Positions 6,899 through 22,532 of a DNA stretch of 64,000 nucleotides are shown here, one piece after another (the first letter of the stretch is position 1; every line of letters starts with the position of its first letter). The DNA is taken from the NCBI RefSeq assembly GCF_006494535.1, contig NZ_VHIQ01000005.1:124001-188000 (forward strand). Reading direction: 5' to 3'. The notes beneath the pieces are model-generated. The model searched no databases. It worked only from the letters and a program-made list of their open reading frames with translations, and was not told the DNA's origin. The stretch is from Paucihalobacter ruber (GTDB lineage Bacteria; Bacteroidota; Bacteroidia; Flavobacteriales; Flavobacteriaceae). The position numbers were made by a program, and so were the translations under genes.

Positions 6899-8902
6899 TT
6901 AAATCTTTAATTTTTCAAGTTTAGCCTGATAGGCGGTAATTTCATCTCTAAACTTGGCGGCCTCCATAAAATCCAGTGCCTTCGCAGCTGCTTCCATTTG
7001 CTTGCGTTTATCTCTAATAGCTTTTTCCAACTCGCTTTTTGTAAGATATTTAGATTCGGTTTCAGCAGCTTTTCTGGCTTCCTGTTCGTAATAATAGGTA
7101 CTCACCGAATTTTTAGATAAGGCATTGTCCAGCGACTTGTTTAAAGCTGTTGGCGTGATATTGTTCGCCGTGTTGTAGGCTATTTGCTTTTCTCTTCTGT
7201 AGTTAGTTTCATCAATTGTTTTTTGCATGCTATTAGTAATTTTATCGGCATACATAATGGCCTTGCCGTTCAGGTTCCTCGCGGCGCGTCCTACAGTTTG
7301 GGTCAACGAACGATTAGAACGTAAAAAGCCTTCCTTGTCTGCATCGAGGATGGCAACCAGCGATACTTCGGGTAAATCCAACCCTTCACGCAACAGGTTA
7401 ACACCCACCAAAACATCGAATAAGCCTTTTCTCAAATCTTGCATGATTTCAACGCGTTCCAGTGTATCTACATCGCTGTGAATGTATCGGCATCTAATGG
7501 CAACTCTGGTTAAGTATTTTACCAGTTCTTCAGCCATACGTTTGGTAAGGGTTGTCACAAGAGTGCGTTCATCTTTTTCTACACGCTGCTGTATTTCTTC
7601 AATTAAATCATCAATCTGGTTAAGGCTGGGACGCACTTCTATCACAGGATCCAGTAGGCCGGTGGGTCTAATCACCTGTTCAACATATACACCACCTGTT
7701 TTTTGCATTTCGTAATCGGCCGGTGTAGCACTCACGTAAATCACCTGATTTTGCAAGGCTTCAAATTCTTCAAACTTTAAGGGTCGGTTATCCATGGCTG
7801 CAGGTAATCTGAAACCGTATTCCACCAAATTTTCCTTTCTGCTTCTATCACCACCATACATGGCATGTACCTGAGAAATGGTGACATGGCTTTCATCAAC
7901 CACCATTAAATAATCGTTTGGAAAATAGTCTAACAAACAAAACGGTCTGGTTCCCGGTGCACGACCATCGAGATAGCGCGAGTAATTTTCAATTCCTGAA
8001 CAATAACCGAGCTCTCGTATCATTTCTAAATCGAATTCAGTGCGTTCTTTTAAGCGTTTGGCTTCTAAATGCTTACCGATTTCGTTAAAATAATCGTGTT
8101 GCTTTACCAAATCGTCCTGAATATCGATGATAGCTTTTTGAAGGATGTCTGGTGAAGTCACAAACATATTGGCCGGATAAATTGTCAATCGGTCATAACT
8201 CTCCAAAACTTCGTTGGTTTGTACATCAAAGGCTTCAATTTCTTCAATTTCATCGCCAAAGAAGTGAATTCTGAAAGCATTATCAGCATAACCGGGAAAA
8301 ATATCAACAGTGTCACCTTTAATTCTGAAGTTACCGTTGTTAAACTGCGCTTCGGTTCTTGAATATAAACTTTGAACCAGTTGATGCAGCAGTTTGGTTC
8401 TTGAAATCACCTGGTCGCGTTCTAAGGTAATCACATTCTTTTGAAATTCAATTGGATTACCAATGCCGTATAAACAAGACACCGAAGCTACCACAAGCAC
8501 GTCGCGTCTGCCCGAAAGCAGGGAAGAAGTGGTGCTAAGTCTTAGCTTTTCGATTTCCTCATTAATCGATAAATCTTTTTCTATGTAAGTGCCAGAAGTG
8601 GGAATGTAGGCTTCCGGCTGGTAATAGTCGTAATAAGACACAAAATATTCAACTGCGTTGTCCGGAAAAAACTGTTTAAATTCAGAATATAATTGTGCGG
8701 CTAGTGTCTTGTTATGTGCCAAGACTAAGGTTGGCCGTTGTACTTTTTCAATCACATTGGCGACGGTAAAAGTTTTACCCGAACCGGTAACACCTAACAG
8801 CGTTTGGTATTTGTCGCCCGCAGTAATCCCTTGGGCCAAACTGTTAATAGCTTGGGGCTGATCTCCGGTAGGTTCAAATTGTGATGAGATTTTAAAACGC
8901 AT
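6899..8902 (-). CDS. uvrB: Excinuclease ABC subunit B
   Basis: UvrB is the damage-verifying helicase-like subunit of the UvrABC nucleotide excision repair nuclease. The 667-aa length is full. Walker A is GVTGSGKT (residues 37-44). The beta-hairpin region SYYDYYQPEAYIP, the DESH box (near 338), the helicase motif TVGRAARN and the C-terminal UVR domain (about 628-663) that contacts UvrC are all visible. The start is ATG, with MRFKISSQFEPTGDQPQAI matching the family. It is a single gene, transcribed towards the TerB-like gene. Confidence 0.97.
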   Translation of the reverse strand: MRFKISSQFEPTGDQPQAINSLAQGITAGDKYQTLLGVTGSGKTFTVANVIEKVQRPTLVLAHNKTLAAQLYSEFKQFFPDNAVEYFVSYYDYYQPEAYIPTSGTYIEKDLSINEEIEKLRLSTTSSLLSGRRDVLVVASVSCLYGIGNPIEFQKNVITLERDQVISRTKLLHQLVQSLYSRTEAQFNNGNFRIKGDTVDIFPGYADNAFRIHFFGDEIEEIEAFDVQTNEVLESYDRLTIYPANMFVTSPDILQKAIIDIQDDLVKQHDYFNEIGKHLEAKRLKERTEFDLEMIRELGYCSGIENYSRYLDGRAPGTRPFCLLDYFPNDYLMVVDESHVTISQVHAMYGGDRSRKENLVEYGFRLPAAMDNRPLKFEEFEALQNQVIYVSATPADYEMQKTGGVYVEQVIRPTGLLDPVIEVRPSLNQIDDLIEEIQQRVEKDERTLVTTLTKRMAEELVKYLTRVAIRCRYIHSDVDTLERVEIMQDLRKGLFDVLVGVNLLREGLDLPEVSLVAILDADKEGFLRSNRSLTQTVGRAARNLNGKAIMYADKITNSMQKTIDETNYRREKQIAYNTANNITPTALNKSLDNALSKNSVSTYYYEQEARKAAETESKYLTKSELEKAIRDKRKQMEAAAKALDFMEAAKFRDEITAYQAKLEKLKI

Positions 8903-8950: not shown

Positions 8951-11278
8951 TTATCTTTTTAGGGTGAAATGACCGCTAAAGCTGGTGCCATCGCCTAAAG
9001 TAGCCGTATACCAATAGTCGTTGGTGGGCAAGAGATTTCCGTTAAAGGTGCCATCCCAACCTGAGCCCAACGGACTAATTGTAGCCAATAATTTTCCATA
9101 TCGGTCAAATATTTTGATGTTGATATCGCTGTTGAATTCTTGATCTACGCCATACACCTGCCAAAAGTCATTAAAACCGTCGTTGTTAGGTGTGAAATAT
9201 TTCGGGAAGCCCAAAACTGCAAATCGTCTTGAACTTATACCACAACCATTTACATCTCTTACATAAACGGTGTGGAAACCTGGTGCTACATTTTCAAACC
9301 GGTTACCGTCCTGATACAATCCATTTTCGTTATCCAGAGCAAATTCGTAGCTACCTGAGCCCGAAACAAAAATTTCAACCGTATTATTGTTGTTTTGTGT
9401 GACATTAATAGTTTCTATCTCTGCAATTTCCGAAGCTAAAACAGTGATATTTCTGGAGCTGCTACAACCATTGGTACTTGTAACAATTACAGTATAGATT
9501 CCCGGTTGATTGATGTTGATAAACGAGGTACTTATCTCGGTGGTTACACCCTTGAACAGCCATTCATAAGAAAAATTAGATGGAATGTTGTTGATAATAC
9601 CGCTATTCAAAGTAATGGTATTTGGAAACGTATTGAGACAATAATAAACGCTTTCGTCCGGTAAAAGTTGTGGTGTTTCCAATACCCGTAGGTTTAAATT
9701 AGCTATGCCAAAACATTGGTTATTAGATCGAACATTAACAAACAAGGTTTGGTTAAATGCATTGATGTTTTCGTAATTCAATGGCAAGGGGTTGATTCTG
9801 TTTTCAGCATTATTGGCCGTTTCATAAAATAACAGTTGTGCGTCGTCCGGGATTTGATTGGCGATGGAATTTCTTACCTGAGATAAATTGAAAGTGGCAA
9901 AACCTTCTCCATTAGTGGTATCGCAAGCGGTTAATTCGGGAATGTTAATTTGGGTTATGCTAATTTCGAGTTGTAACGGAGCCACATTAAAACATCCTGA
10001 CTGACTAAAAACTCGTGCGTAAACGTTTTGAAAAGGATTAGAACTTTCAAAATTGGTAGGGTTTGGAATTGGATTGTTGAACTGAAAAGCATCTTCTTCG
10101 GTAAGGAAAAAATCAGCAATTACCAGATTGGGATTGTCATTGGTAAGTTCAGCCTGAGCGTTAAATAGGTTATAAATAGCCGTTCCGTTTTGCTCAAAAT
10201 CACATTCGGTTAAAACGGCGTTGAAAACTTCGGGTAATTCGTCGTATTCAATGACGATTTCGCCAAAAGATTCACAATTGTTATCTAATAGAATTTCAAC
10301 ATTATAAGTGCCGGCTTCATCGATAGTCAAAGTAGCGTCAGTTTCACCTTCTAATGCTAAACCGTCTCTAAACCACTGGTATTGGTTGTTGCCGGGTTCG
10401 GTGGCGTCTATGGTAAAGGTTTCGTCGCCGCACAAGGCATTACCGGTTGATAATAATCGGTTAAGTCCTAATGGTGTGGAGAGCTGAAAACTTCCGCCTT
10501 CCAAAAATACAGCCGAGTCAAAACGGTAATTAATGTGGTCTGCAATCACCAGTTTAACACGGTAGGTTTCATTGGGTATAATATCGGCTGTGGCTGTGAG
10601 CACTTTGGTTTGGCCGTTAAAATTGATAGGTGCGTCGACCCCGTTAAAGGTATCGAAATAAAACTCGTTTTGAGCCGGACAACCACCGGGAATTTCGGGT
10701 AGTACGTTGGTGACCTTAATGGGAATATCAGTGCCCGGAACTACAGCAATATTGGTGTATAACTGGTCGTTGATGGGGCGAATTAAAAAAGCAAACAAAT
10801 CTGAAAATCTGCAGGTATTGGTGTTGTTTTCCTGATATTCTTCCGAAGCAAATAAATACCTAAAGCTAATTTGTGAAGCAACAGCTTCAAATTCAAATTC
10901 AATGATGGTAGCGTTGATTGTTCTGTCTTCATCTAAATAAAATTCGAGTTCATCGTCGCCAATCCATCCCGGCGCATCGTCATCGCTTAGGTTGTTGTTC
11001 GGCCCGGGCACATTAGACAGTCTTCCGGTGGATAGAACAATACCGCGTTCAAACGGAAAGCCTGAGTTGTTGCCTTCAAAATATCCAAAACTGCTGTCAC
11101 CATCTGAAAAATTACCCCCAACAAAATTCACCACATTCACGTTGGTAATGCAGTCGCTGTCGATTAAAATATTTTCAATCAGTTCTTGTGGAGAATAGGT
11201 TTGTGCATCTACCGAAATATTTTGACCAAATATCAGGTTTGAAATGCAACAGCCAATAAACAACATTAAATAGCGCAT
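8951..11278 (-). CDS. T9SS type B secreted protein, choice-of-anchor L domain
   Basis: A 775-aa exported protein. The order is signal peptide (1-18), choice-of-anchor L domain (about 20-265, with GYFEGN-SGFPFERGIVLSTG and FLFASEEYQE-like segments), an Ig-like segment (about 275-345, YQWFRDGLALEG), two copies of the roughly 87-residue CDxxxDG repeat, a second Ig-like segment, and a C-terminal CHU_C/type B sorting domain (about 695-775) ending in GHFTLKR. The last domain sends proteins through the type IX system to the cell surface. It is the downstream member of the four-gene paralogous cluster and has its own promoter. A role as adhesin or matrix protein is inference. Confidence 0.88.
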   Translation of the reverse strand: MRYLMLFIGCCISNLIFGQNISVDAQTYSPQELIENILIDSDCITNVNVVNFVGGNFSDGDSSFGYFEGNNSGFPFERGIVLSTGRLSNVPGPNNNLSDDDAPGWIGDDELEFYLDEDRTINATIIEFEFEAVASQISFRYLFASEEYQENNTNTCRFSDLFAFLIRPINDQLYTNIAVVPGTDIPIKVTNVLPEIPGGCPAQNEFYFDTFNGVDAPINFNGQTKVLTATADIIPNETYRVKLVIADHINYRFDSAVFLEGGSFQLSTPLGLNRLLSTGNALCGDETFTIDATEPGNNQYQWFRDGLALEGETDATLTIDEAGTYNVEILLDNNCESFGEIVIEYDELPEVFNAVLTECDFEQNGTAIYNLFNAQAELTNDNPNLVIADFFLTEEDAFQFNNPIPNPTNFESSNPFQNVYARVFSQSGCFNVAPLQLEISITQINIPELTACDTTNGEGFATFNLSQVRNSIANQIPDDAQLLFYETANNAENRINPLPLNYENINAFNQTLFVNVRSNNQCFGIANLNLRVLETPQLLPDESVYYCLNTFPNTITLNSGIINNIPSNFSYEWLFKGVTTEISTSFININQPGIYTVIVTSTNGCSSSRNITVLASEIAEIETINVTQNNNNTVEIFVSGSGSYEFALDNENGLYQDGNRFENVAPGFHTVYVRDVNGCGISSRRFAVLGFPKYFTPNNDGFNDFWQVYGVDQEFNSDINIKIFDRYGKLLATISPLGSGWDGTFNGNLLPTNDYWYTATLGDGTSFSGHFTLKR

Positions 11279-11300
11279 ATATTTTGCCTAAAACCGCGTG

Positions 11301-11308
11301 CAAAGATA
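11301..11308 (-). promoter_or_regulatory. -7 box of the 775-aa T9SS gene
   Basis: The minus strand reads TATCTTTG, an exact TAnnTTTG match, 22 bases before the ATG at 11278. The -33 element is weak. Confidence 0.65.
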
Positions 11309-11353
11309 CAATCCTTGAATATTTATCTGTTGAAATATTTGTTAAAGCTAAAA

Positions 11354-14300
11354 TTAGCGTTTTAAAGTAAAATGTCCTTTAGCTTGAAATTTTATATCGC
11401 CTCTAACTACATCTGCTAAGAACCAATAATCGTTAGTCGGCATGAGTTGGTTGTTATAGGTGCCGTCCCAACCTTGTGAGCTTGATGTGAGTGTTTTTAG
11501 AAGCTTCCCATAGCGGTCAAATATATAAACTATTGTTCCCGGCATCGTTTCAACGCCCGAAATATGCCAGGTGTCAAAATACCCGTCGTTGTTGGGTGTC
11601 ATAAATTTTGGGGCATCAATCACCACGACCTCACGCGTTACTTCAGAACATCCATTTAAATCTATAATGGTAATGGTGTGATAACCTAAAGTCACATTTT
11701 CAAAAAGGTTAGATGTTTGAGGAGCTTCTCCGTCGAGCGAGTAGGCATAATTTCCTATACCGTTCACCGTAATAGTAATATTGTTGGGGTCTGAAAAGTC
11801 AATCACTTCAACTACTTCAATGTTGGCAGACTCAGATTCAATGACATCAAAACTGACTGAAGTTTCACAGCCAAAAATACTGGTCACCATTACCGAATAG
11901 TTGCCAATTTGAGAAATTTCTATTTCAGGAGTGGTAGCTCCGGTAGACCATAAATAATTATCATATTGATTATTGGTATTTGCGCTTACCACTACCGAAC
12001 CAAGGTCTAAACAAATCACTTGTGTTGGAATTTCTACCTCAGGTCTTGGATTCACTATGATGCCAAATTGGGTAGTACTAAAACATCCTGTTGAATTGTT
12101 TTGGACTCTCACAAAAATTTCGTCCATGTCTTGTGCTTCATAGTAAGTATCCAGCGCATTTTGGGCCAGTTGGGTATCTGTGAGTGTGTTGTAATAACTT
12201 ACCGTATAGTCATTAGGGTTTTGTGTTCCTAAAATAGTTGCTGTTTGAACGTTTAAGTCAAAAAACAAGAAACCGTCAAAATCATCATCGCAGGCTACGA
12301 GGTCGTCGGGCTGGTTGGCTATTGGCAATGGGTTCACCTGCAAGATAAAATCATAAATGATAAAGCATCCCATTGTATTGTTTGAAACTCTCGCAAATAA
12401 CAAGTCGTTATTAGTTTGATAGTTGTAAATCTCCGGTAAGGCATTTACATTATTGACTGCATCTATTTCAGAAGTAAAATAAGCAATGTTAAGATTTGAA
12501 GTATTGTCAACCATCACATTACTGATCTCGTTTAAATTAATTGTTTCATTGAGATGGTAGCAAATGTCATAGATAACAAAATCGTTGATAGCCGGCGGTA
12601 AGTTAACTTCCAAAGCAATTGGCACCGCTACATGACAATTTGAAATGGTGTTGGTAACCTTAAAATAAACTGTTTGCGGATTACTTGTATTGGTGTAATT
12701 TGAAGGATTTGTAATGGGGTTTTGGTTGGCTTCTAAATCTTCTAGATTTTCAAAATAAGCAGTTACCAGATTGTCTTGTCTTACATCTAAAATTGAATTA
12801 GACGCACTTGTTAAATCAAAATTAGTTATTCCATCATAGTTATCATCGCATGCAATTAATGGTGGAGCAAAATTCACCTGCGGCACCTGAATAACATTTA
12901 TGGTAAAACTTGTGATACCCACGCAAATGGTGCCATTGTCGATTCTCGCAAAAATGGTTTGGGGGTTAAGACTATTAGTGAAAGTTAGCGGTAAAGCATT
13001 TTCATTGTTTTCAGCTTCTACTTGATTGAGATGAAAAGTAATGTTGAGATTGTCGTTGATGCCCTGTGAAATTTCATCAATTTTTTGATTGAGGTCGATG
13101 GTTTCTCGACCATCATTTGAAATATCATCGCACAAAAACACATCTAATGGTTCATTGAATTCGGGTATACTACCCACTTCTATAATAAACGACGAAGTTC
13201 CAAAGCAACTCTCATCGCTTATGTTTTCAACTCTTATATATATGGTCTGCGGATTTGTAGTATTTTGATAAGCCGAGGCTTTATCAATCATATTGGTGCG
13301 GTTTTCAGCATCAGTTTGATTCTCAAAATATAAAACCTGCTTGCCGTTTTGTCCGTTCAGTATTTCAGAATCTTTTATGTTGAAATAGAAATCGGCAAAA
13401 TCATTGTTGCTTGAGTCACAAATTTTATAGTTTGAAATACTTTGAAATTGTGGTAATGTATTGATAATAATATTAATAACCTCAATTGAAAAACAACTTG
13501 TTAAGGTGCTTTCAACTCTTGCGAATACTTGTGTGGAAGCCGTAGTAAAAGCTTCAGGTGTGGTGATAGGGTCAATATTGGAGTTAGCATCCTGTTCAGA
13601 TGTATGAAAACTAATCACTAAATCATTAGTACTGCTTACCAATTCGTCAATGGTGTTGTTTAAATTAATGATGCTAACACCATCAAAATCATTATCACAA
13701 ACCAAAATATCGTTTGGTGTTGAGGTTTCAGGAGCCGGAATTAGATTAATGACAAATGAATTTACGTCAGCACAGCCGGTACTATTTTCTTGTATTCTGG
13801 TGAAGATAGTTTGAGGATTGCTGATGTTTTGATAAAAAGTAGGTAAAGCATTTGTGTTGTTTTCAGCATCAGTTTCTGTAGCAAAATAAGTAACAGTAAA
13901 TTCAGATTGACCTTGATTAACCTGATTATCAAAAGTACTTAAATCTATAATTGTAAAACCATCTTGATCGGTATCGCAATAATCAACACTGCCAATCGAT
14001 TCAAATTCTGTTATGGCATTTAAAACAAATTCAATGCTCTCGTACTCGGTACAAGTTGGACTCATTACCTCAATGTAAATAACCTGCGGGTTAGATGTAG
14101 GCACAAATGGTTCGAGTAGGTTGAGTGCGTTAGTTTGATTGTTTCGATCTTCTTCGCTTGTGTAAAAGTTCATGGAAACATCAGGCAAATCATTAATCAT
14201 TACCGTTGCAATATTGAATAAATTAAAGGTTTCAACACCGTCATTACCAATATCGCAAAGCGAAAAATCTCTAATTTCTGTTCCTGTAAGTAATAAGTTG

Positions 14301-16177
14301 GTGTGTATTTCAAACGGTCTTACCGAGGCACAACCAGTTGTAATGTCTTCAACTCTTATAAAAACAACCTGTTCAGCTATGTTGGTATTTTGATAATTTG
14401 AAGGATTGGCAATGGCATTGATTCCAGATTGACCATCTTCTAAAGTTTCATGAAAAGTTACCGTTACATTGGTGAGTCCTTGAAGTACATCTGCAACAAC
14501 ATCATTTAGGTTAAAATTTGCAAAACCATTATAATCACTGTCACAGGCATCCAGAAAAATTGATTCAAAGCTAATGGCCGGATTTGATTGAACGACAACC
14601 TCTAATGCAGTGGTAGTGTAACAACCACTGTTAATGTCTGTAACGCGGGCATAAACGGTTTCGTTTGGATTAACATTCACATAAGGCATCGCTATGGGAT
14701 TAGCCGCATTGTCAGCATCTGTTGGGCTAAAATGATAGGTGACCGTTAAATTGGAATTGTTATTGGTAATTTCTTCATCTTTAAGTTGAAGGTTAATTTG
14801 TGTGAAGCCATCCGGATCACTGTCATCGCAAACTAACAGCGGTGTTGGCTCTGTAATCGCAGGTAGTTCATTAACAATTAAATTAAAAGAATTAAAGGCT
14901 AAACAACCTGAATTTCTATCTTCAATACGCACATGAATGGTTTGCGGATTGTTAGTATTTTGTATAGGACTTGTTATTGGGTTAACGTTGTCTTGCGCTG
15001 CCGTAGCAGTATAGTGGTAACTAAAACTATAATTTGAAGAAGGTACCGATGCTAAAACTTCTGCATTTTTCAGCGACAAGTCAAAGGTTTGTGCGCCGTT
15101 GTTATTGAAGTCACAGAGCTCAAAATCTGCAATTGGATTAGCACTTTGAGTACTGCTCAAAGTAACGTTAATATCATCTTCAATAATACAAAAGGTGCCG
15201 GCCAGAGGAATTTCAATTTCAACTCGATAGTTTCCTGATTGCTCAATGGTAAGCAACGGATTGTTCTCTCCATTTATTAACGTATTATTAAAAAACCATT
15301 GGTAGGTAGCTAAGTTGTTGCCGGTATCTGCATTGAGTTGAACTTCATCGGCGCATGTTGAAAAATCTTCGCCCAAATCAACAAAAGAGTTGAAGCTATT
15401 TCCTTGAATAAAGACTGCCGAGTCGTAATTGGTGTCGTTTTGGTCGGCAATTACCAATTTAATTTGGTATTCCTGATTGGGAACAATACTTGCTGAAGCA
15501 GTTAAAACGGTGGTTCGACCGTTGTAATTGGTATCACCCATGTTGTAACCGTCAAAAAATTGTTCATTTGCAGCCGGACAAAAACCCACTATTTCCGGAC
15601 GAATATTACTGGTGTTGACAGGGGTATTGGTATTTGGAATAAGTGCAATATTAGTGTAAGGTTGGTTGCTTCCGATAGGTCTTATTAAAAAAGCAAAACC
15701 GTCTGCGTAGTCACATGGGTTGTTGGCAAAGTATTCTTCGGAGGCCAGAATATAATTAAACGAAATTTGATTGGTAGTAGAAATAAAGTTGAATTGAATA
15801 GAAGTGGCATTAAATGTGTTTGAAATCCCTAAAGTGTTTTCTAAATCACTATCGGTGCCCCAAGAGGTATTGCCTTCATTTAATACCTGAGTATTCAGTG
15901 TATTACCGGCAGATCGTGCATTACCCGTTGAAAGAACGATGCCGGTTTCAAAAGGGAAATTTGATCCTCCACGTTCGAAATAACCAAAACTGTTAATGTT
16001 ATTTACGGAACCATTTATTGTAGATGAAATATTGGAAACTTCAACGCAGCCTGATATTAATTGGTTTTCTATGAGTTCCCGGGCCGAAAGATTGTCGTTT
16101 ACAGAAATAAGTTGTCCAAATGAAAGCACACTGAAGCAACATAATAAAACTGTGAGGGATAGTAGTTTAAAAGACAT
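11354..16177 (-). CDS. Giant T9SS type B protein with 11 tandem repeats
   Basis: A 1607-aa exported protein. A signal peptide (to about residue 21) is followed by a choice-of-anchor L domain (about 22-270), an Ig-like segment (about 275-345), eleven tandem repeats of about 85-90 residues (about 350-1380), another Ig-like segment and a type B T9SS sorting domain (about 1525-1607, FMTPNNDGYFDTW ... GHFTLKR). Each repeat opens with C-D-x-D-x-DG-like acidic residues, contains a V-YF-T--DA-N--NPI-like middle, then Q-TI-ARV and a second cysteine near its end. Repeat 10 has lost most of the acidic motif. It looks like an extended surface stalk; ligand and function are unknown. Confidence 0.88.
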   Translation of the reverse strand: MSFKLLSLTVLLCCFSVLSFGQLISVNDNLSARELIENQLISGCVEVSNISSTINGSVNNINSFGYFERGGSNFPFETGIVLSTGNARSAGNTLNTQVLNEGNTSWGTDSDLENTLGISNTFNATSIQFNFISTTNQISFNYILASEEYFANNPCDYADGFAFLIRPIGSNQPYTNIALIPNTNTPVNTSNIRPEIVGFCPAANEQFFDGYNMGDTNYNGRTTVLTASASIVPNQEYQIKLVIADQNDTNYDSAVFIQGNSFNSFVDLGEDFSTCADEVQLNADTGNNLATYQWFFNNTLINGENNPLLTIEQSGNYRVEIEIPLAGTFCIIEDDINVTLSSTQSANPIADFELCDFNNNGAQTFDLSLKNAEVLASVPSSNYSFSYHYTATAAQDNVNPITSPIQNTNNPQTIHVRIEDRNSGCLAFNSFNLIVNELPAITEPTPLLVCDDSDPDGFTQINLQLKDEEITNNNSNLTVTYHFSPTDADNAANPIAMPYVNVNPNETVYARVTDINSGCYTTTALEVVVQSNPAISFESIFLDACDSDYNGFANFNLNDVVADVLQGLTNVTVTFHETLEDGQSGINAIANPSNYQNTNIAEQVVFIRVEDITTGCASVRPFEIHTNLLLTGTEIRDFSLCDIGNDGVETFNLFNIATVMINDLPDVSMNFYTSEEDRNNQTNALNLLEPFVPTSNPQVIYIEVMSPTCTEYESIEFVLNAITEFESIGSVDYCDTDQDGFTIIDLSTFDNQVNQGQSEFTVTYFATETDAENNTNALPTFYQNISNPQTIFTRIQENSTGCADVNSFVINLIPAPETSTPNDILVCDNDFDGVSIINLNNTIDELVSSTNDLVISFHTSEQDANSNIDPITTPEAFTTASTQVFARVESTLTSCFSIEVINIIINTLPQFQSISNYKICDSSNNDFADFYFNIKDSEILNGQNGKQVLYFENQTDAENRTNMIDKASAYQNTTNPQTIYIRVENISDESCFGTSSFIIEVGSIPEFNEPLDVFLCDDISNDGRETIDLNQKIDEISQGINDNLNITFHLNQVEAENNENALPLTFTNSLNPQTIFARIDNGTICVGITSFTINVIQVPQVNFAPPLIACDDNYDGITNFDLTSASNSILDVRQDNLVTAYFENLEDLEANQNPITNPSNYTNTSNPQTVYFKVTNTISNCHVAVPIALEVNLPPAINDFVIYDICYHLNETINLNEISNVMVDNTSNLNIAYFTSEIDAVNNVNALPEIYNYQTNNDLLFARVSNNTMGCFIIYDFILQVNPLPIANQPDDLVACDDDFDGFLFFDLNVQTATILGTQNPNDYTVSYYNTLTDTQLAQNALDTYYEAQDMDEIFVRVQNNSTGCFSTTQFGIIVNPRPEVEIPTQVICLDLGSVVVSANTNNQYDNYLWSTGATTPEIEISQIGNYSVMVTSIFGCETSVSFDVIESESANIEVVEVIDFSDPNNITITVNGIGNYAYSLDGEAPQTSNLFENVTLGYHTITIIDLNGCSEVTREVVVIDAPKFMTPNNDGYFDTWHISGVETMPGTIVYIFDRYGKLLKTLTSSSQGWDGTYNNQLMPTNDYWFLADVVRGDIKFQAKGHFTLKR

Positions 16178-16349
16178 CTTATTTTTTGGTTATCTATATG
16201 AGCTCGGTCTATTTTTATTATTAAACAGACTTAACTATTTTTCACCGACGAAAGTATATTATAAATAGATGAAATGCAATTAATAACGATGAAGTGCATA
16301 ATACTTTAACATTTGATAGGTAAATATGCTTTCAATTATTCAAAAAACA

Positions 16350-16376
16350 CCAAATTCCAAATTCCAAATTCCAAAT
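16350..16376. repeat. Heptamer tandem repeat (CCAAATT)n
   Basis: Three full CCAAATT units and a partial fourth lie in the 280-base gap between two T9SS genes. The same heptamer array recurs near 51348. The rest of the gap (16178-16457) contains no gene that I can support. Confidence 0.8.
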
Positions 16377-16457
16377 GTCAATTACCAAATATCGGCATTC
16401 GTAGGCATAAAGTACCAAATTAAAGAAGCTAGAAACTAAAATCTGCGTATAGTAGGA

Positions 16458-18242
16458 TTAATAGTTAATTGTAATCCAGCCTTTGAAATCCTTATAATTT
16501 GGGTCGCGCAATTTAAGAATGTAATAATAACTGCCTTGCGGAACTACATTTGAGGTGCCATTTAGACCCCGATTTGGCACGCCATTCCACGGTTGGTTAT
16601 TATCTCCCACAAAAATGAGTGTTCCGTAACGGTTGAAAATGAGTAGTTCATGGTTAACAAAAATGTCGTACAAGCCCTGAATGTTGAACCAATCGTTTAA
16701 GCCGTCGTTGTTGGGAGAAAAGCCTTCAGGAATTCTTGGTGGACAGTTTTCTACTGTTAAATCTGTTTCAAATACTTCAAAACAAGATGCAGTGAGGTGT
16801 TTGATATAAATTTTTTGAGGATTCGCTTGGTTGTTAAAGCTGAAGGCCGAATAGATTGGGTTAATGTTCTGGTATAACTCCTCTAAATTTTCAAAAAAAC
16901 TATAGTTGTCTTCATTTTGATCGGGTAATCCCAAGATAAGCGACCACAAATCAAAAGTACCAACCTCAAAACCTTCATTACAGGCCGTAGCGCCGGCTAT
17001 CGTAACGATGTCTGGAGGTAGATTCAAAGCTACCAATTGCGAGATACTGTTGTTACTCTCATCCAGTTCTGTTACCATACCGTTACCTGTACCGTCATCG
17101 TCAACTGCTATGCGAAGCGTAAATTCAGGGCTGATATCTTCGGGGATGGTGAGGGTGATCAATCCGCTTTCTGAGGCACTGATGGCAATGTCATTGTTGG
17201 TGGCACTTTGACCAATCAGCCTATCATCTGCATAAAAAGCTATGGGTGTACCCGAAGGTAGTATATCGGTACTGTTAAGGTTGAATACCTCAAATTCAAC
17301 TTCTATATCGAAAATGTTACAACGTGTGAAAACGTCGTTAATGGTTATGGTAGCATCGGGCAACTGACTGTTTAAAACCGTAATGATGTTATTGATCATC
17401 ACAAAATCCTGACCGGATGTGAGTTCAATAATCGCTGAATCGTCTCCTATATTGATAAAGTTTTGGATATTGTAAACATCAATATCCATATTCCAAAGCT
17501 CGTTGCTACCCGTAAAACTATTGGTGCTGTTAAAGGCATTGTTAATCGGATTTAACGGTGGATTGCTAAGGGCAATGCCATTAATACTCAGCGTTTCGTT
17601 CACAGCTAAAGCTGCATCACCTTCCCAGGCTAGAAAACCAATTTTAGCACCTTCGGTGTCTAAAACATTCAAATTGTCTAAGGTAATGGTTAGGCTGTTT
17701 GGTACGCTTTGTAGTCCGTCGTAAACATTTACTTGGTTAAGTGGAAGGTTTTCATCTTCAAAAATTATAATGATAGACCAACCCGCGAAATTGGTTCCTG
17801 ATGGACAATAGGGTGCAATCACTTCGGTAAGGTCCAAATTTGACAAGGTATAATCGCCATCACCGGTGTCTAGTACCAAGTTGGTAACCTCGGCAAATGC
17901 TGCGAAAAAAATGCGACTGGCATCAAGGCTATTGGTAAAGGTTCTTTCTGCTGAGATGGGAACCTCATTTAATTGAACCTCAAAATCGCCCGGTCCGGAA
18001 CCTGCCCAATACAAATAGGCAGCTACAATAGTTTGGCTGTTGGTTAAATTAAGCGTCGCTGAAGAAGTCGTTAGAATTTCGCAAACCGAAAATGGCCCAT
18101 TTTCAGAGGTGTTCATGGTATTGCCAATGGCGGTGTAGTCGTATCGTCCGTTAAACTGTTGGTATAGACTTACATCTTGAGCCGATACAACAGAAAAAAC
18201 AGTTAGACTCAAAAATACAGAAAGTGTTTGGTACCACTTCAT
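16458..18242 (-). CDS. T9SS type B secreted protein, one CDxxxDG-type repeat
   Basis: A 594-aa exported protein with signal peptide MKWYQTLSVFLSLTVFSVVSAQ. Residues about 25-280 form a beta-rich domain (AAYLYWAGSGPGDF, FAGWSIIIIFED) of a kind seen in gliding-associated secreted proteins. About 285-400 is CARDB-like (VEFEVFNLNSTDILPSGTP, DESNNSISQ). A single weak copy of the repeat shared with its neighbours follows (ACNEGFEVGTFDLW), then the type B sorting domain (GFSPNNDGLNDWFNIQGL). Its last residues, GWITINY, differ from the GHFTLKR end of the three paralogues. Confidence 0.85.
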   Translation of the reverse strand: MKWYQTLSVFLSLTVFSVVSAQDVSLYQQFNGRYDYTAIGNTMNTSENGPFSVCEILTTSSATLNLTNSQTIVAAYLYWAGSGPGDFEVQLNEVPISAERTFTNSLDASRIFFAAFAEVTNLVLDTGDGDYTLSNLDLTEVIAPYCPSGTNFAGWSIIIIFEDENLPLNQVNVYDGLQSVPNSLTITLDNLNVLDTEGAKIGFLAWEGDAALAVNETLSINGIALSNPPLNPINNAFNSTNSFTGSNELWNMDIDVYNIQNFINIGDDSAIIELTSGQDFVMINNIITVLNSQLPDATITINDVFTRCNIFDIEVEFEVFNLNSTDILPSGTPIAFYADDRLIGQSATNNDIAISASESGLITLTIPEDISPEFTLRIAVDDDGTGNGMVTELDESNNSISQLVALNLPPDIVTIAGATACNEGFEVGTFDLWSLILGLPDQNEDNYSFFENLEELYQNINPIYSAFSFNNQANPQKIYIKHLTASCFEVFETDLTVENCPPRIPEGFSPNNDGLNDWFNIQGLYDIFVNHELLIFNRYGTLIFVGDNNQPWNGVPNRGLNGTSNVVPQGSYYYILKLRDPNYKDFKGWITINY

Positions 18243-18284
18243 ACTAAATTTATTGTTGCCACGAATTTATCAAAAAAAGATCTA

Positions 18285-21200
18285 TTACCTCTTTAAAGTA
18301 AAATGCCCGTTTAGGTGTCTGCCATCTTCTAATGTAACAGAAAACCAATAATCGTTGGTAGGCATGAGTTGACCGTTAAATGTGCCATCCCATCCGGTGC
18401 CAAGCGGATCGATTTGTGCCAGTAATTTTCCGTAGCGATCGTAAATGTAAATAATGGTGTTAGGTTGAAAATCGCGGTTGATACCTTTTACTTGCCAGAA
18501 ATCGTTAAAACCATCGCCATTAGGGGTGAAGTATTTTGGGAAACCAATTACTGAGACGGTTTCTTCAACAATACCACAATTATTTCGGTCTCTGATATAA
18601 ACGGTGTAGATACCGGGTTGCAGATTGTTGAAGGTATTGCTCTCCTGATAGGGACCAAAACTGTCCAAAGCGTAGTCGTAATCTCCTTCACCGCTAACGA
18701 TAACGGTAATGCTGTTATCTTGAGCAGCATCGGTGACTTGCACATTTTCAACGGTGGCGATATTAGACGGCAATACTGTGATGGTACGGTCTTTAAAACA
18801 GCCGTTGGTATTGGTTACGCGTACTGTATAAGTACCGGGCGCATTGACCTGTATTTGCATACTGGTTTCGCCGGTAGACCAGTTATAAAAAAAGTTGTTG
18901 GGCAGGTTGTTTAACACGCCGCTATCGAGGGTGATGGTTTCGGGAAAAAAGTTGAGGCAGTAGAGGGTTTCAAATGTTGTTTCAATTTGGGGTAATTCAA
19001 AAACGGTTAATAACACTTCATTAATACCAAAACAGGCGTTGTCGTTTTCAACCCTTACAAAGATGGTGTGATTAAAAGCCACCGTATTGGTGTAGTTATT
19101 GGGTAGTTCATTTTGCTCCAATAGTGCATCTTCAAGTGTTTCGTAATAGGCAATGTCTAAACCGGCTGGTAAACCCTGTAATACTTGCGCATTGGCTTGA
19201 GACAGGTTAAAGGTATAAAAACCGTCTTCAAGACCATCATCATCACATGCGCTGAGTTGTGCATCATTGGCTGCGGTGGCGCTAACTTCTAAAGTAACGG
19301 TTGCAGTGCTCGTACAACCGGTGCTGGTATTGGTGACTTGAGCATAAATGGTTTGCGGATTTTCAAAATTGGCAAAATTGTTACCGTCAATAGGATTGGT
19401 ATTGTTGTTTAAATCGGTTTCGTTTAGAAAATAATCAACACTTCTATTGGGTTGGCCATTGGTGATGTCTTCAAATATCTCATTGATATTAAACAGGGTA
19501 AAACCGTCTGGGATACCATCTTCATCGCATTGAAAAATTGTACTGTTCGTGAATTCCGGCACGGGATTTACAATAAAATTCAAAGCCGAAATTGTAAAAC
19601 AATCAGTATTGTTGTTATTGGTGATTCGCACAAAAACCGTATCGTTAAACGGTGTGGTATTTTGATAGTTGCCAATGATTGGATTGGTATTGCTATCGGC
19701 ATCTGCCTGCGAGTTGTAATAACTTACATTAAAGTCTGAAGTGCTTTGAGTTCCCAGTACATCTGCGTTAAAATCGGTTAAATTAAATTCAGAAATACCA
19801 TCGGTAAGGTCATTAAAATCATCGCAAATTTCAAGGGTATTAATCCCAAAAACTACAGGAGTTAAAAATACTTGGTACTCAAAGTCGGTAATGTCAAAAC
19901 AATTGGGATTATTCTGATTTTGCACCCTAGCATAAATGGTTTGCGGATTAGAACTATTAGTGAAGTTACCTTCAATAGGGTTGAGGTTATCCATAGCCGC
20001 TTCCATAGAGGTGAAATATAACACTTCGTAAGTATTTGAGTCCAGACTGTCTAATATTTCAGTGCTCTTGGTGGTTAAATCGAATTCGGATATAAAGCTG
20101 TCGCTGCAAATTTCAACATTAGTGGGTTGATTGGCAATCACCGGTACCTCAAAATAAGACACGATGGCTTCACCTTCAATAGGGCATTCGCCATTATTGG
20201 GTTCTATGAACAATTGATAGAACCCCGGTGTGCTTACGGTTAAGTTAAAAAGTGTTTCGTCGGTTAGTTCATTACCATCTCTAAACCATGTGTAATCGGC
20301 TCCGGGGATCTCGTCGCCCTGAAGTGTAAATGTACCACCATCGCAGAGTAATAATTCTGATGTACTAATACCATTTCTGATAATGTCTATTTCAGAATTA
20401 AACAGCGACTGAATAAACGGTGGTAAGCCAATGGTACTTCGGTTTTGACCGGTGCCATTCACATCCAGTAGCACACCCTGTTCATTATAATTTGCTGCCA
20501 TACCTGAAGCTTCCGGATTATTGATGACACCTAAGAAGCGTGAAACTGTGTTATTGAAGGTAAAGCTTAACTGTGCCCGGTATATTTTTTTGTTGATGCC
20601 CAGTTGTAAGGCACCGGCACTCATAGCATTGGAGGTGTGAATGATTTGAGCAGAAGCCGCTATATTGGCAGCTTCTAAATCCCACTGAATAACCTGACTG
20701 GCACCGTCACCACTAATGCCAAGACCAACAGTGGCGTATAATTTTTTATTTTCGGCGGAGAATTCTATGCCGTACGGACTGTTATTATTTTGTTGTGAAT
20801 AGATTTCTATAGGGTTTGAGACTGTTCCGGTGTCATTATCAAAATCGTATAAATACACGGCTCCGGGTCCATCGGTTGCTGTTTGGGTTGAAAAGCCGTG
20901 ATGTGCCACCGCTAGTTTACTGCCATCGGGTGAGGCTTTAAGATAACCCAGTGCATTTCTTCGGTAGCCGGCAAAAGGCACAAAAGGTTCTACGGTTGAA
21001 ATCACCGGTGTGGTTTCTACGCCGGTTTCGGTAACTTTAAATGCGTAAAAATTTGAACCAAAATGAGATAGCACCCAAAACGATGAACAGTCGTCCGCCC
21101 GAACTGCCGTAATTTTTTCTGAACATTTATAACTAGCCTGAATGGAATTGTTGGGATCGTAAGTAATGAGTTCTACATTTTTTTCGGTTGGGACCACATC

Positions 21201-21680
21201 TCCCAAACCAGCTCGCAGCGACATGTCTATTAATGAATATCTCAGCCCATCGTTTGAGCCATTACCGGCAGATTGATTTGGAAATGAAGGCGTATTAAAA
21301 TGATGTGGTTCATCAACTGTAAAAATGTAAAAGAAATTGTCGTCTTGAGGTCTTGGCACAATAAGTCCTGATGAGGTACTGGAGTTATCACCGAGCAAGC
21401 CTGTACCGGATGCCTCATTAGCGTTAGGCATGGGCAGGTGGTTGCGATTCCAGATGGTTCTTCCATCTGAATAAAACAATAAATTACCGTTGGTATCTGA
21501 AATAGAAGTGCAGCCTTCAAGCGTACTGAGCCGGCCATTCGTTAGTGCTGTTACCTGATCGGTATTTTGATTAAATCTAACACCTGCAAACTGACCAAAG
21601 TACCAGTTGGCCGCCTCGTTTTGAGCCAATCCTTTGAAGCCCAATAATAAAATTAAGGTAAAATATAAGTAATACTTCAT
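18285..21680 (-). CDS. T9SS type B secreted protein with N-terminal propeller-like domain
   Basis: 1131 aa when started at the ATG at 21680 (MKYYLYFTLILLLGFKGLAQ signal peptide); the longer frame opens with TTG at 21692, only a few bases after the -7 box, so it is unlikely. Residues about 20-420 resemble beta-propeller domains common in Bacteroidota surface proteins (NWYFGQFAGVRFN, GNLLFYSDGRTIWN, LKASPDGSKLAVA). Next come an Ig-like segment, four copies of the CDxxxDG repeat, a second Ig-like segment and the type B T9SS domain ending in GHFTLKR. It is first in the four-gene cluster. Confidence 0.87.
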   Translation of the reverse strand: MKYYLYFTLILLLGFKGLAQNEAANWYFGQFAGVRFNQNTDQVTALTNGRLSTLEGCTSISDTNGNLLFYSDGRTIWNRNHLPMPNANEASGTGLLGDNSSTSSGLIVPRPQDDNFFYIFTVDEPHHFNTPSFPNQSAGNGSNDGLRYSLIDMSLRAGLGDVVPTEKNVELITYDPNNSIQASYKCSEKITAVRADDCSSFWVLSHFGSNFYAFKVTETGVETTPVISTVEPFVPFAGYRRNALGYLKASPDGSKLAVAHHGFSTQTATDGPGAVYLYDFDNDTGTVSNPIEIYSQQNNNSPYGIEFSAENKKLYATVGLGISGDGASQVIQWDLEAANIAASAQIIHTSNAMSAGALQLGINKKIYRAQLSFTFNNTVSRFLGVINNPEASGMAANYNEQGVLLDVNGTGQNRSTIGLPPFIQSLFNSEIDIIRNGISTSELLLCDGGTFTLQGDEIPGADYTWFRDGNELTDETLFNLTVSTPGFYQLFIEPNNGECPIEGEAIVSYFEVPVIANQPTNVEICSDSFISEFDLTTKSTEILDSLDSNTYEVLYFTSMEAAMDNLNPIEGNFTNSSNPQTIYARVQNQNNPNCFDITDFEYQVFLTPVVFGINTLEICDDFNDLTDGISEFNLTDFNADVLGTQSTSDFNVSYYNSQADADSNTNPIIGNYQNTTPFNDTVFVRITNNNNTDCFTISALNFIVNPVPEFTNSTIFQCDEDGIPDGFTLFNINEIFEDITNGQPNRSVDYFLNETDLNNNTNPIDGNNFANFENPQTIYAQVTNTSTGCTSTATVTLEVSATAANDAQLSACDDDGLEDGFYTFNLSQANAQVLQGLPAGLDIAYYETLEDALLEQNELPNNYTNTVAFNHTIFVRVENDNACFGINEVLLTVFELPQIETTFETLYCLNFFPETITLDSGVLNNLPNNFFYNWSTGETSMQIQVNAPGTYTVRVTNTNGCFKDRTITVLPSNIATVENVQVTDAAQDNSITVIVSGEGDYDYALDSFGPYQESNTFNNLQPGIYTVYIRDRNNCGIVEETVSVIGFPKYFTPNGDGFNDFWQVKGINRDFQPNTIIYIYDRYGKLLAQIDPLGTGWDGTFNGQLMPTNDYWFSVTLEDGRHLNGHFTLKR

Positions 21681-21699
21681 TCTCGATAGCAACAGCTAC

Positions 21700-21707: not shown

Positions 21708-22532
21708 TTATAAATCTCGTTTTTTTAATAATTTGTAGGATAAAAACACAAATATGAAGGTCCAGAGTAATACAATCAGTACTTCGTGCCAGTGTACTGC
21801 AAAATCATAGGCCATTTCGGTTTTATCAGGGAATTTGGTCATGGCTAAGCGCTGAAAGGGTTGGTCAATGAGTTTGTACATAGATTTTAAAGGGAAGAAG
21901 TTTTGAATTTTTTCGGCAAAGGCCATATCGCTTTTCCATGCAATAAGTCCAAAGCTAATCCATTCAACGATGTATAAAACAAACAAAAAGGCCAACGCAA
22001 ATGCCGAACGTTTTAACAGCATGGCGAAAAACAAGCACAAACTAAAAAAGCCAACAAGTTTTACAAAATACGCCAGGATAAATTCCGACTCTCTAAAAAT
22101 GATACCAATTTCGTTGTAACTTGAGTAATATAAGCCTATGGCTAATGTGAGTAAAAAGATGATTAAGGTAGAAATCAACGAAAAGAATACAATGGCATAA
22201 AACTTAGACAATATAAATTCCCGTTTGCTCAAACCATCAATCAAGTTCTGTTTTAAAGTGCGGTTGCTGTATTCGTTACCTATCATACTTACCACTACAA
22301 TGGCGAAAAAGAACTTGAACTGCGATGCAAAAAAGGTGGTGAGATGCCATATAATAGGGAAGTTAAAAACACCCATTTCCCCTAATTCAAAAGTGAACAA
22401 GCCAAAAAAATTGATTTTAAATGAGGACAACAGCAGTATAAAAAATGGTAAAACAAACGATATGAAAATGAGCACTTTATTGACTCTGCTCAATAATAAT
22501 TTTTGTAATTCAAGTTGTAGTAAGCGAATCAT
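21708..22532 (-). CDS. ABC-2 type transporter permease
   Basis: A 274-aa membrane protein with about six hydrophobic segments (VLIFISFVLPFFILLLSSF, FFFAIVVVSMIG, IVFFSLISTLIIFLLTLAI, LVGFFSLCLFFAMLL, ALAFLFVLYIVEWISFG, LIVLLWTFIFVFLSYKLL). The NEYSNRTLKQNLIDGLSKREF segment after the second helix is typical of ABC-2 permeases of the NatB/gliding-type exporters. The start is ATG. It follows the ATPase gene by 11 bases, so the two make one exporter whose substrate is unknown. Confidence 0.88.
   Translation of the reverse strand: MIRLLQLELQKLLLSRVNKVLIFISFVLPFFILLLSSFKINFFGLFTFELGEMGVFNFPIIWHLTTFFASQFKFFFAIVVVSMIGNEYSNRTLKQNLIDGLSKREFILSKFYAIVFFSLISTLIIFLLTLAIGLYYSSYNEIGIIFRESEFILAYFVKLVGFFSLCLFFAMLLKRSAFALAFLFVLYIVEWISFGLIAWKSDMAFAEKIQNFFPLKSMYKLIDQPFQRLAMTKFPDKTEMAYDFAVHWHEVLIVLLWTFIFVFLSYKLLKKRDL

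Follow-up and report, generated by a model that had tools for sequence, protein, structure and literature searches.

Proteins known as Periscope proteins combine a tip domain, a stalk of tandem domains, and a C-terminal anchor, and the available text of the reports on them describes near-identical repeats in varying number (PMC9704523, PMC9210967, PMC8201768). As for export, the available parts of two further papers report that type B substrates of the type IX secretion system (T9SS) are kept at the surface by a PorP/SprF-like carrier (PMC12635249, PMC12618676), that three orphan type B substrates of Flavobacterium johnsoniae share one orphan shuttle, Fjoh_1677 (PMC12618676), and that the CxC tail of SprF bonds to GldK of the gliding track (PMC12635249). 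Here we describe four adjacent T9SS genes, p1 to p4 (numbered by rising coordinate, p1 being the lowest), from a stretch of 64,000 nucleotides of Paucihalobacter ruber, referred to below as the window (RefSeq assembly GCF_006494535.1, contig NZ_VHIQ01000005.1, positions 124,001 to 188,000). These proteins share the layout of Periscope proteins and are the opposite case: in the accessible text of two of the reports (PMC9704523, PMC9210967) the number of Periscope repeats differs from strain to strain and their identity is high, whereas the repeats within p2 are 20–42% identical and their number is nearly fixed between species.

The reading that we favour, with somewhat better than even confidence, is that p1–p4 represent T9SS type B fibre adhesins of fixed length, stapled by disulfides, with different tips, a probably shared orphan shuttle for p1, p2, and p4, and block-wise growth in p2. 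They are type B substrates of the orphan kind, of which the position-fixed array and the block-wise growth are new; no fixed or block-wise repeat number in T9SS proteins is described in the titles and abstract beginnings among the matches listed in our literature search, which left most of the subscription literature outside.

A hidden Markov model (HMM) of the repeat, seeded with eight p2 copies and read before any iteration, reports 2, 11, 1, and 4 copies in p1, p2, p3, and p4, respectively. For the eight seed copies a match follows from how the model was built; the ten other copies, not used as seed, score from 27.7 (p3) to 78.6 bits, well above the best domain score of 9.8 bits that the same HMM gives across 2000 shuffled copies of the four proteins. 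The initial annotation, made from the letters of the window, had described four consecutive minus-strand genes (775, 1607, 594, and 1131 amino acids, aa) with one repeat family in these very numbers, and its coordinates, lengths, and counts are all correct. The CDxxxDG motif by which it had defined the repeat is usual but not universal, being absent, for example, from p2 copy 10, p4 copy 1, and the p3 copy.

The repeat is about 94 residues long. When the 18 copies were scanned singly against Pfam and NCBIfam with E-values up to 1, no family, Ig_7 and PKD included, appeared in more than one copy (best E 0.014), and sequence searches of the PDB gave no chain for a single repeat at E up to 1, nor for a four-repeat profile at E up to 10. 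In none of the four genes does Tandem Repeats Finder (TRF) report a tandem array with the period of the repeat. With an E cut-off of 1e-8 the repeat occurs in 19 of 148 genomes of the phylum, 15 of which belong to the same family, the window's genome included. Elsewhere in that genome, a 3274-aa frame on the small contig C19 (1–9822, locus L144) has two weak repeat copies, and no type B domain was found in it.

Exactly two cysteines are present in 1238 of the 1243 repeats of 113 eleven-repeat p2 proteins, which we read as one probable disulfide staple per domain. The predicted fold of one copy, a check that the initial annotation had proposed, is a confidently modelled immunoglobulin (Ig)-like sandwich (predicted local distance difference test, pLDDT, 93.8; predicted template modelling score, pTM, 0.82) with strands at 7–12, 20–22, 37–42, 58–60, 66–74, and 80–91 plus two short helices. 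Its VIA matches are mostly Ig-like chains at Z 5–6.5, a middling range for this tool, with GhpA in first place. For p2 repeats 8–11 the model has a pLDDT of 92.0 and a pTM of 0.62; in it each domain appears sure, and the mutual arrangement of the domains moderately so.

Copy number was compared in three partly overlapping sets of relatives: 41 uvrB-anchored neighbourhoods of family members, 80 named loci chosen by the p2 head alone (best 80 of 374), and 40 stretches from head matches in a 299-genome sample of the family, 20 of them odd in length or distance and 20 divergent. The named and family-wide relatives were picked by a head alignment (A2), independently of the repeats, and duplicates as well as incomplete proteins were removed from the final tally. 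According to this tally, p1 orthologues have 2 repeats in 49 of 50 cases (the remaining one has none), and p4 orthologues, with heads at least 60% identical, have 4 in 38 of 38. Orthologues of p3 have a single repeat in 75 of 78 cases, and the three others are counted as 3, two of these via the spacing rule with two copies detected. Propeller-head proteins below 60% identity, which are other paralogues or diverged, carry 4 repeats (23 proteins), 2 (16), 1 (7), or 6 (1).

The p2 clade was defined by the presence of the position-specific repeats 3, 4, 6, and 7. Its 135 complete non-redundant proteins comprise 114 with 11 repeats, 15 with 14, 3 with 17, 1 with 20, and 2 with 9, and a change by a single repeat was counted in none of them, copies inferred from spacing included. 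Eight second paralogues that would otherwise be ten-repeat proteins have one double-length gap (193–199 residues) between detected copies and were counted as 11 from this spacing. Frame lengths in the 299-genome sample show a similar picture: 106 of the head matches listed were taken (E down to 3.6e-124) from 98 genomes and 81 genus codes (hand count), and their open frames fall at 1600–1670 aa (94), 1880–1930 aa (2), 2160–2195 aa (3), and 1410–1450 aa (2). Four of the five other frames are cut by a contig end, lack the sorting domain, or contain a stop, and the fifth has 504 aa. Two further matches among those listed, at E of about 1e-107 and with frames of 1634 and 1613 aa, stand outside the 106-match tally.

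The initial annotation had seen in the differing copy numbers a stalk of variable length, and had counted numbers fixed in all relatives as evidence against it. Fixed numbers are nearly what is observed for p1, p3, and p4, and in p2 the 21 exceptions consist of 19 proteins that add whole blocks and 2 that lose two repeats. The variable stalk is thus not borne out, since orthologues largely keep their number across species and each repeat position has a lineage of its own.

Several loci contain more than one gene of this kind. Two complete p2 paralogues of different length, with no missed copy, are found in eight loci (11+14 repeats in seven, 14+20 in one). Three complete 11-repeat p2-like genes stand in tandem in one genome (L024 and L172); in L024, beside uvrB, a fourth p2-like gene, cut there and whole with 17 repeats in L119, adjoins the three. 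The second p2-like copy of L090 (10723–16821) is apparently broken, having 8 repeats and no sorting domain, and is followed by a partial copy up to the end of the stretch. In addition, the 80 named loci hold 38 proteins of another paralogue of about 815 aa with four repeats and no recognised head (e.g. L065, L076), often located between p3 and p4 and not present in the window.

To assess the positional identity of the p2 repeats, 20 proteins with eleven repeats from the uvrB-anchored set, among them three paralogues of a single genome, were compared by BLAST. The best match of repeat i in another protein has the same index in 3850 of 4180 comparisons, the chance value being 1/11. In 225 of 229 repeats, the median of the best matches in other proteins exceeds the best match inside the repeat's own protein. 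The array thus predates the sampled lineages and has not been turned over since. A descent of the arrays in p1, p3, and p4 from individual positions of p2 was also considered and rejected, as the window copies show no clean mapping (margins of 0–12 bits).

Position profiles were then built by index from 71 eleven-repeat p2 proteins, whose own members fit by construction. They map the 14-repeat form as 1–11 followed by 9-10-11, the 17-repeat form with two added blocks, and the 20-repeat form with three. Independent tests of position are the BLAST index comparison and later-fetched loci absent from the profiles, of which L153 and L154 (14 repeats) and L155 and L156 (17 repeats) give the same block map. 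Overall, the map holds in 15 of 15 fourteen-repeat proteins, in the only twenty-repeat protein, and in 2 of 3 seventeen-repeat proteins. Block copies within one protein are 37–66% identical. In a block tree, which covers the 19 longer proteins together with 38 of the 113 that have eleven repeats, they group within their own lineage, with Shimodaira–Hasegawa-like approximate likelihood ratio (SH-aLRT) values of 97 for L153/L154, 96 for L155, and 99 for the later blocks of L080/L119, which suggests that the same block has been duplicated several times, in separate lineages.

Regarding the shuttle, the genome encodes 14 type B domains and has 6 matches to PF11751, by which PorP/SprF-like shuttles were recognised. 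Five adjacent pairs are formed, leaving nine type B substrates, p1–p4 included, without a neighbouring shuttle and one shuttle without a neighbouring substrate; no PF11751 match is located on contig C15, which carries p1–p4. The sixth PF11751 match, a fused 726-aa frame at C14:127422–129599 (L152), is longer than the other shuttles and lies beside a type B gene. The arrangement is alike in F. johnsoniae, in so far as its orphan type B substrates are described in the available part of PMC12618676: no porP/sprF-like gene is adjacent here either, and the genome has one unpaired shuttle. This likeness is one of gene arrangement.

The unpaired shuttle, encoded at C1:590608–591612, ends in ...DCNCPAVN, a CxC tail, and so does the shuttle beside a 3243-aa type B protein, presumed to be SprB (...DCPCTKSKINKF); in the three other shuttle C-termini, whose genes neighbour type B genes, the last 70 residues are free of cysteine. 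Sorting domains were compared with one of the 14 left out, which lies in a short frame. The eight orphan domains other than that of p3, i.e., those of p1, p2, and p4 and five more, are 43–92% identical among themselves, and the domain of the presumed SprB is 42–45% identical to those of p1, p2, and p4. The presumed SprB differs in that it is longer than p2 and that no repeat copy was found in it, and a role in motility would be an extrapolation for p2. GldJ is also encoded in the genome. From the orphan arrangement, the clustering of sorting domains, and the orphan route of F. johnsoniae we infer that p1, p2, and p4 probably share the one orphan SprF-like shuttle; by analogy, they may ride the gliding track.

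All four proteins exceed the cut-off of the type B sorting domain model TIGR04131 (113.5, 112.9, 44.7, and 119.7 bits for p1–p4, cut-off 35), and a surface location of p1–p4 seems well supported by these domains. The common sorting domain of the initial annotation is therefore present throughout, but its p3 form is divergent, being 28–34% identical to the others, which share 51–65% among themselves. Under different heads, the tails that follow the array in p1, p2, and p4 are 44–57% identical (44% between p2 and either p1 or p4). One repeat family and common tails in these three proteins thus agree with the proposal of one stalk family carrying different heads, in which the stalk would be the presumed role of the array.

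Choice-of-anchor L heads, suggested earlier for the first two proteins, are confirmed by NF038133 far above its cut-off of 27 bits (146.7 for p1 and 152.4 for p2). This NCBIfam model names a domain only, and the phrase 'choice-of-anchor L' was not found in the literature searched. The likewise suggested propeller-like head of p4 receives weak signals. Four propeller-type Pfam families, including SGL and WDR55, which we take to belong to this type, each match 1–2 of 28 homologous heads (best E 0.0018–0.01), the window's own p4 head being matched by none of the four. Four PDB matches of the p4 head, presumably propeller proteins, are sub-significant (E 0.39–0.82). Ig-like and PKD family matches flanking the arrays, from which the Ig-like labels in Table 1 are taken, fall below the Pfam cut-offs.

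In the mechanism that we propose, an array of disulfide-stapled Ig-like domains would form a rod-like fibre of fixed length between the tip domain and the cell-surface anchor, the tip being the choice-of-anchor L domain in p1 and p2 and possibly a propeller in p4. Each orthologue keeps an array length of its own and every domain position is conserved individually, so that the stalk does not vary freely. In p2 the length changes almost only by whole terminal 9-10-11 blocks, giving 8+3n domains (11, 14, 17, 20), and such a block may form a structural unit. Once exported, p1, p2, and p4 would most likely be taken over, by their sorting domains, by the single unpaired PorP/SprF-like shuttle. Its C-terminal CxC is similar to the tail coupling SprF to the gliding track, and the adhesins could then be carried on the gliding machinery or be anchored statically. 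More tentatively, p2 might be a secreted molecular ruler of quantised length 8+3n, whose 9-10-11 block would correspond to a single structural turn or joint; additions would then be limited to whole turns, and the orientation of the tip to the cell would be kept; the same block would have been duplicated independently in several lineages, and two lengths stand side by side in some genomes.

A number of results weigh against the fixed-length fibre. The system is missing from many relatives: a p2-like gene is present in 18 of the 41 uvrB neighbourhoods, and the p2 head in 98 of the 299 family genomes at the cut used. Nine of the 41 neighbourhoods show none of the searched features; two of these nine (L023 and L058) are short and lie at a contig end. 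In one genus (G014, G283), two complete p2 proteins have 9 repeats, 10 and 11 having been lost cleanly, and so break the rule of three-repeat steps; a hybrid domain in the 9-repeat protein is ruled out, as both halves of its last repeat are closest to repeat 9. Fifteen proteins with p2 as best head were set aside since repeat 3, 4, 6, or 7 is missing, and they carry 11 repeats in nine cases (in eight of which one undetected copy is counted from the spacing), 7 in five, and 9 in one (10 in an earlier reading). Counts also vary among eight distant head relatives (L161–L168, heads 43–53% identical), namely 7 in five and about 10, 12, and 11 in the others, where the protein with 10 has 9 in the final tally, no sorting domain was found in the one with 12, and the 11 repeats stand in a different order.

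As for the blocks, the later-fetched loci include a few eleven-repeat proteins with one or two units out of order, and in the third 17-repeat protein a tie (margin 0) places one unit at position 2. Sequence similarity at lag 3 gives no clear signal (39.5% vs 33.9–38.6% at other lags). The separate origins of the blocks come from a quick tree, a result that gene conversion could mimic, and only 4 of the 9 changes that the head tree needs for the state of 14 or more repeats are forced by well supported branches. The pTM of the four-domain model is only 0.62. Concerning export, divergent shuttles below the PF11751 threshold could be missed, the p3 sorting domain lies outside the orphan cluster, and that of the presumed SprB, 39–45% identical to the eight orphans, lies near its lower edge. 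In addition, the accessible part of PMC12618676 reports for F. johnsoniae that a reporter carrying the Fjoh_1123 sorting domain remained mostly static, with movement in 3% of cells. Our confidence in the fixed-length fibre is slightly lowered because the position mapping partly follows from how the profiles were built and because repeat numbers differ among the distant head relatives.

Among these distant relatives, L161, L162, L164, L165, and L166 have seven repeats each, with heads 45–52% identical to that of p2 and four genus codes. Seven may be a second fixed number in distant choice-of-anchor L relatives.

The low identity of the copies also means that fixed counts may reflect a missing recombination substrate and not selection on length. 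According to this explanation, which we regard as a serious minority possibility, the number has been frozen by chance, since copies only 20–42% identical within the p2 array would be too dissimilar in DNA to recombine, and TRF indeed gives no array of repeat-unit period in the four genes. The triplet steps would follow from an old block duplication and unequal exchange: once two triplets are present, exchange between them yields steps of three unaided, and triplet copies of 37–66% identity are probably old. However, the triplets of L153/L154, L155, and L080/L119 group by lineage (SH-aLRT 96–99), pointing to separate duplications, the state of 14 or more repeats needs at least 4 changes on well supported branches, and no one-repeat change occurs among the 135 p2-clade proteins. 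Selection on array length and mere freezing both stand as readings, the neutral one being possible but doubtful.

It is rather unlikely that p2 represents a multivalent binder, every repeat of which binds its own target, so that position-specific conservation would reflect ligand specificity and not spacing. The position lineages are distinct and unequally conserved, with median identities to the window's p2 ranging from 38% (repeat 4) to 58% (repeats 1 and 7), but no repeat is as conserved as the heads (median 68%) or the tails (64%), and the repeat matches no known family, binding or other, in the Pfam, NCBIfam, and PDB sequence searches.

A stalk of the Periscope type, with the repeat number tuned among relatives to vary reach, would explain why same-genome paralogues differ in array length (2, 11, 1, 4) and why eight loci pair complete p2 paralogues of unequal length. 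The dissimilar copies of p2 are, however, at odds with the highly identical repeats described in the available text on Periscope proteins (PMC9704523, PMC9210967). Together with the number that orthologues largely keep between species, this makes such a stalk very improbable.

A grappling-hook-like predation fibre related to GhpA of Aureispira, a genus presumably of the same phylum as the window's source, is hardly credible: GhpA, likewise a chain of Ig-like domains, is the best Foldseek match (E 8.5e-14) and provides the six best VIA matches of the four-domain model (GhpA fragments, Z 8.4–9.5, 289–314 residues, root mean square deviation 10.4–11.8), but ICAM-5 and Robo1 are close behind (Z 8.0–8.3), so that its lead over vertebrate Ig chains is about 1 Z unit, two more GhpA entries reach only 7.5 and 6.2, a VIA Z below about 13 for repeats may, by the tool's own warning, mean merely a common arrangement, sequence homology is undetectable (no PDB chain at E up to 1 or 10), and GhpA is far larger, with about 5000 residues by fragment numbering.

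The coordinates of the locus are collected in Table 1. The genes p1–p4 lie head to tail between uvrB and an open reading frame (ORF) at 21708–22532, and their N-termini resemble signal peptides by eye. The ORF of p4 extends to a TTG at 21692, which gives 1135 aa (18285–21692). Between p3 and p2, about 170–200 bp upstream of the p2 start, the heptanucleotide CCAAATT is repeated 3.9 times with no mismatch (window 16350–16376) and might represent a variable tract of the promoter region; in a same-genus genome (locus L021) TRF gives only a different, weak repeat at the equivalent position. A scan for promoter-like and terminator-like sites reports 52 of the former vs 40.6 in shuffles (standard deviation 6.2) and 11 of the latter vs 11.2 (standard deviation 3.4).

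Table 1. Features of the p1–p4 locus in window coordinates (CTD, C-terminal sorting domain)
Feature	Position	Strand	Description and basis
uvrB	6899..8902	minus	downstream neighbour, outside the system; anchor for finding the syntenic locus in relatives
p1, 775 aa	8951..11278	minus	ORF; apparent signal peptide, choice-of-anchor L head, Ig-like domain, 2 repeats, Ig-like domain, small domain, type B CTD
p1 type B sorting domain	8954..9211	minus	profile match, 118.2 bits
p1 repeats 1–2	9668..10234	minus	repeat HMM
p1 choice-of-anchor L domain, residues 47–263	10490..11140	minus	NF038133
p2, 1607 aa	11354..16177	minus	ORF; domain order as in p1, but 11 repeats
p2 type B sorting domain	11357..11620	minus	profile match, 117.1 bits
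p2 repeats 1–11 (repeat 1 at 14858–15145)	12038..15145	minus	repeat HMM
p2 repeats 9-10-11, block duplicated in 14-, 17-, and 20-repeat relatives	12038..12880	minus	repeat HMM and position profiles
p2 choice-of-anchor L domain, residues 36–262	15392..16072	minus	NF038133
p3, 594 aa	16458..18242	minus	ORF; head without family assignment, 1 repeat, divergent type B CTD
p3 type B sorting domain, divergent	16467..16733	minus	profile match, 50.2 bits
p3 single repeat	16737..17015	minus	repeat HMM, 27.7 bits with p2-only seed
p4, 1131 aa from ATG at 21680	18285..21680	minus	ORF; possible beta-propeller head, Ig-like domain, 4 repeats, Ig-like domain, small domain, type B CTD
p4 type B sorting domain	18288..18548	minus	profile match, 125.5 bits
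p4 repeats 1–4	18987..20144	minus	repeat HMM
p4 head aligned with 27 relatives	20442..21617	minus	alignment A3

Bacterial tandem-repeat surface proteins are often discussed as length-variable, and in proteins of the p2 type the copy number is a near-exact, position-specific trait across many genera. They belong to a widespread flavobacterial family whose repeat is covered by neither Pfam nor NCBIfam and whose array is altered almost only in a three-domain unit, which raises the testable question of whether the reach or the orientation of an adhesin tip must be exact. Proteins of the p1, p2, and p4 type are, moreover, obvious candidates for substrates that take the orphan type B shuttle route.

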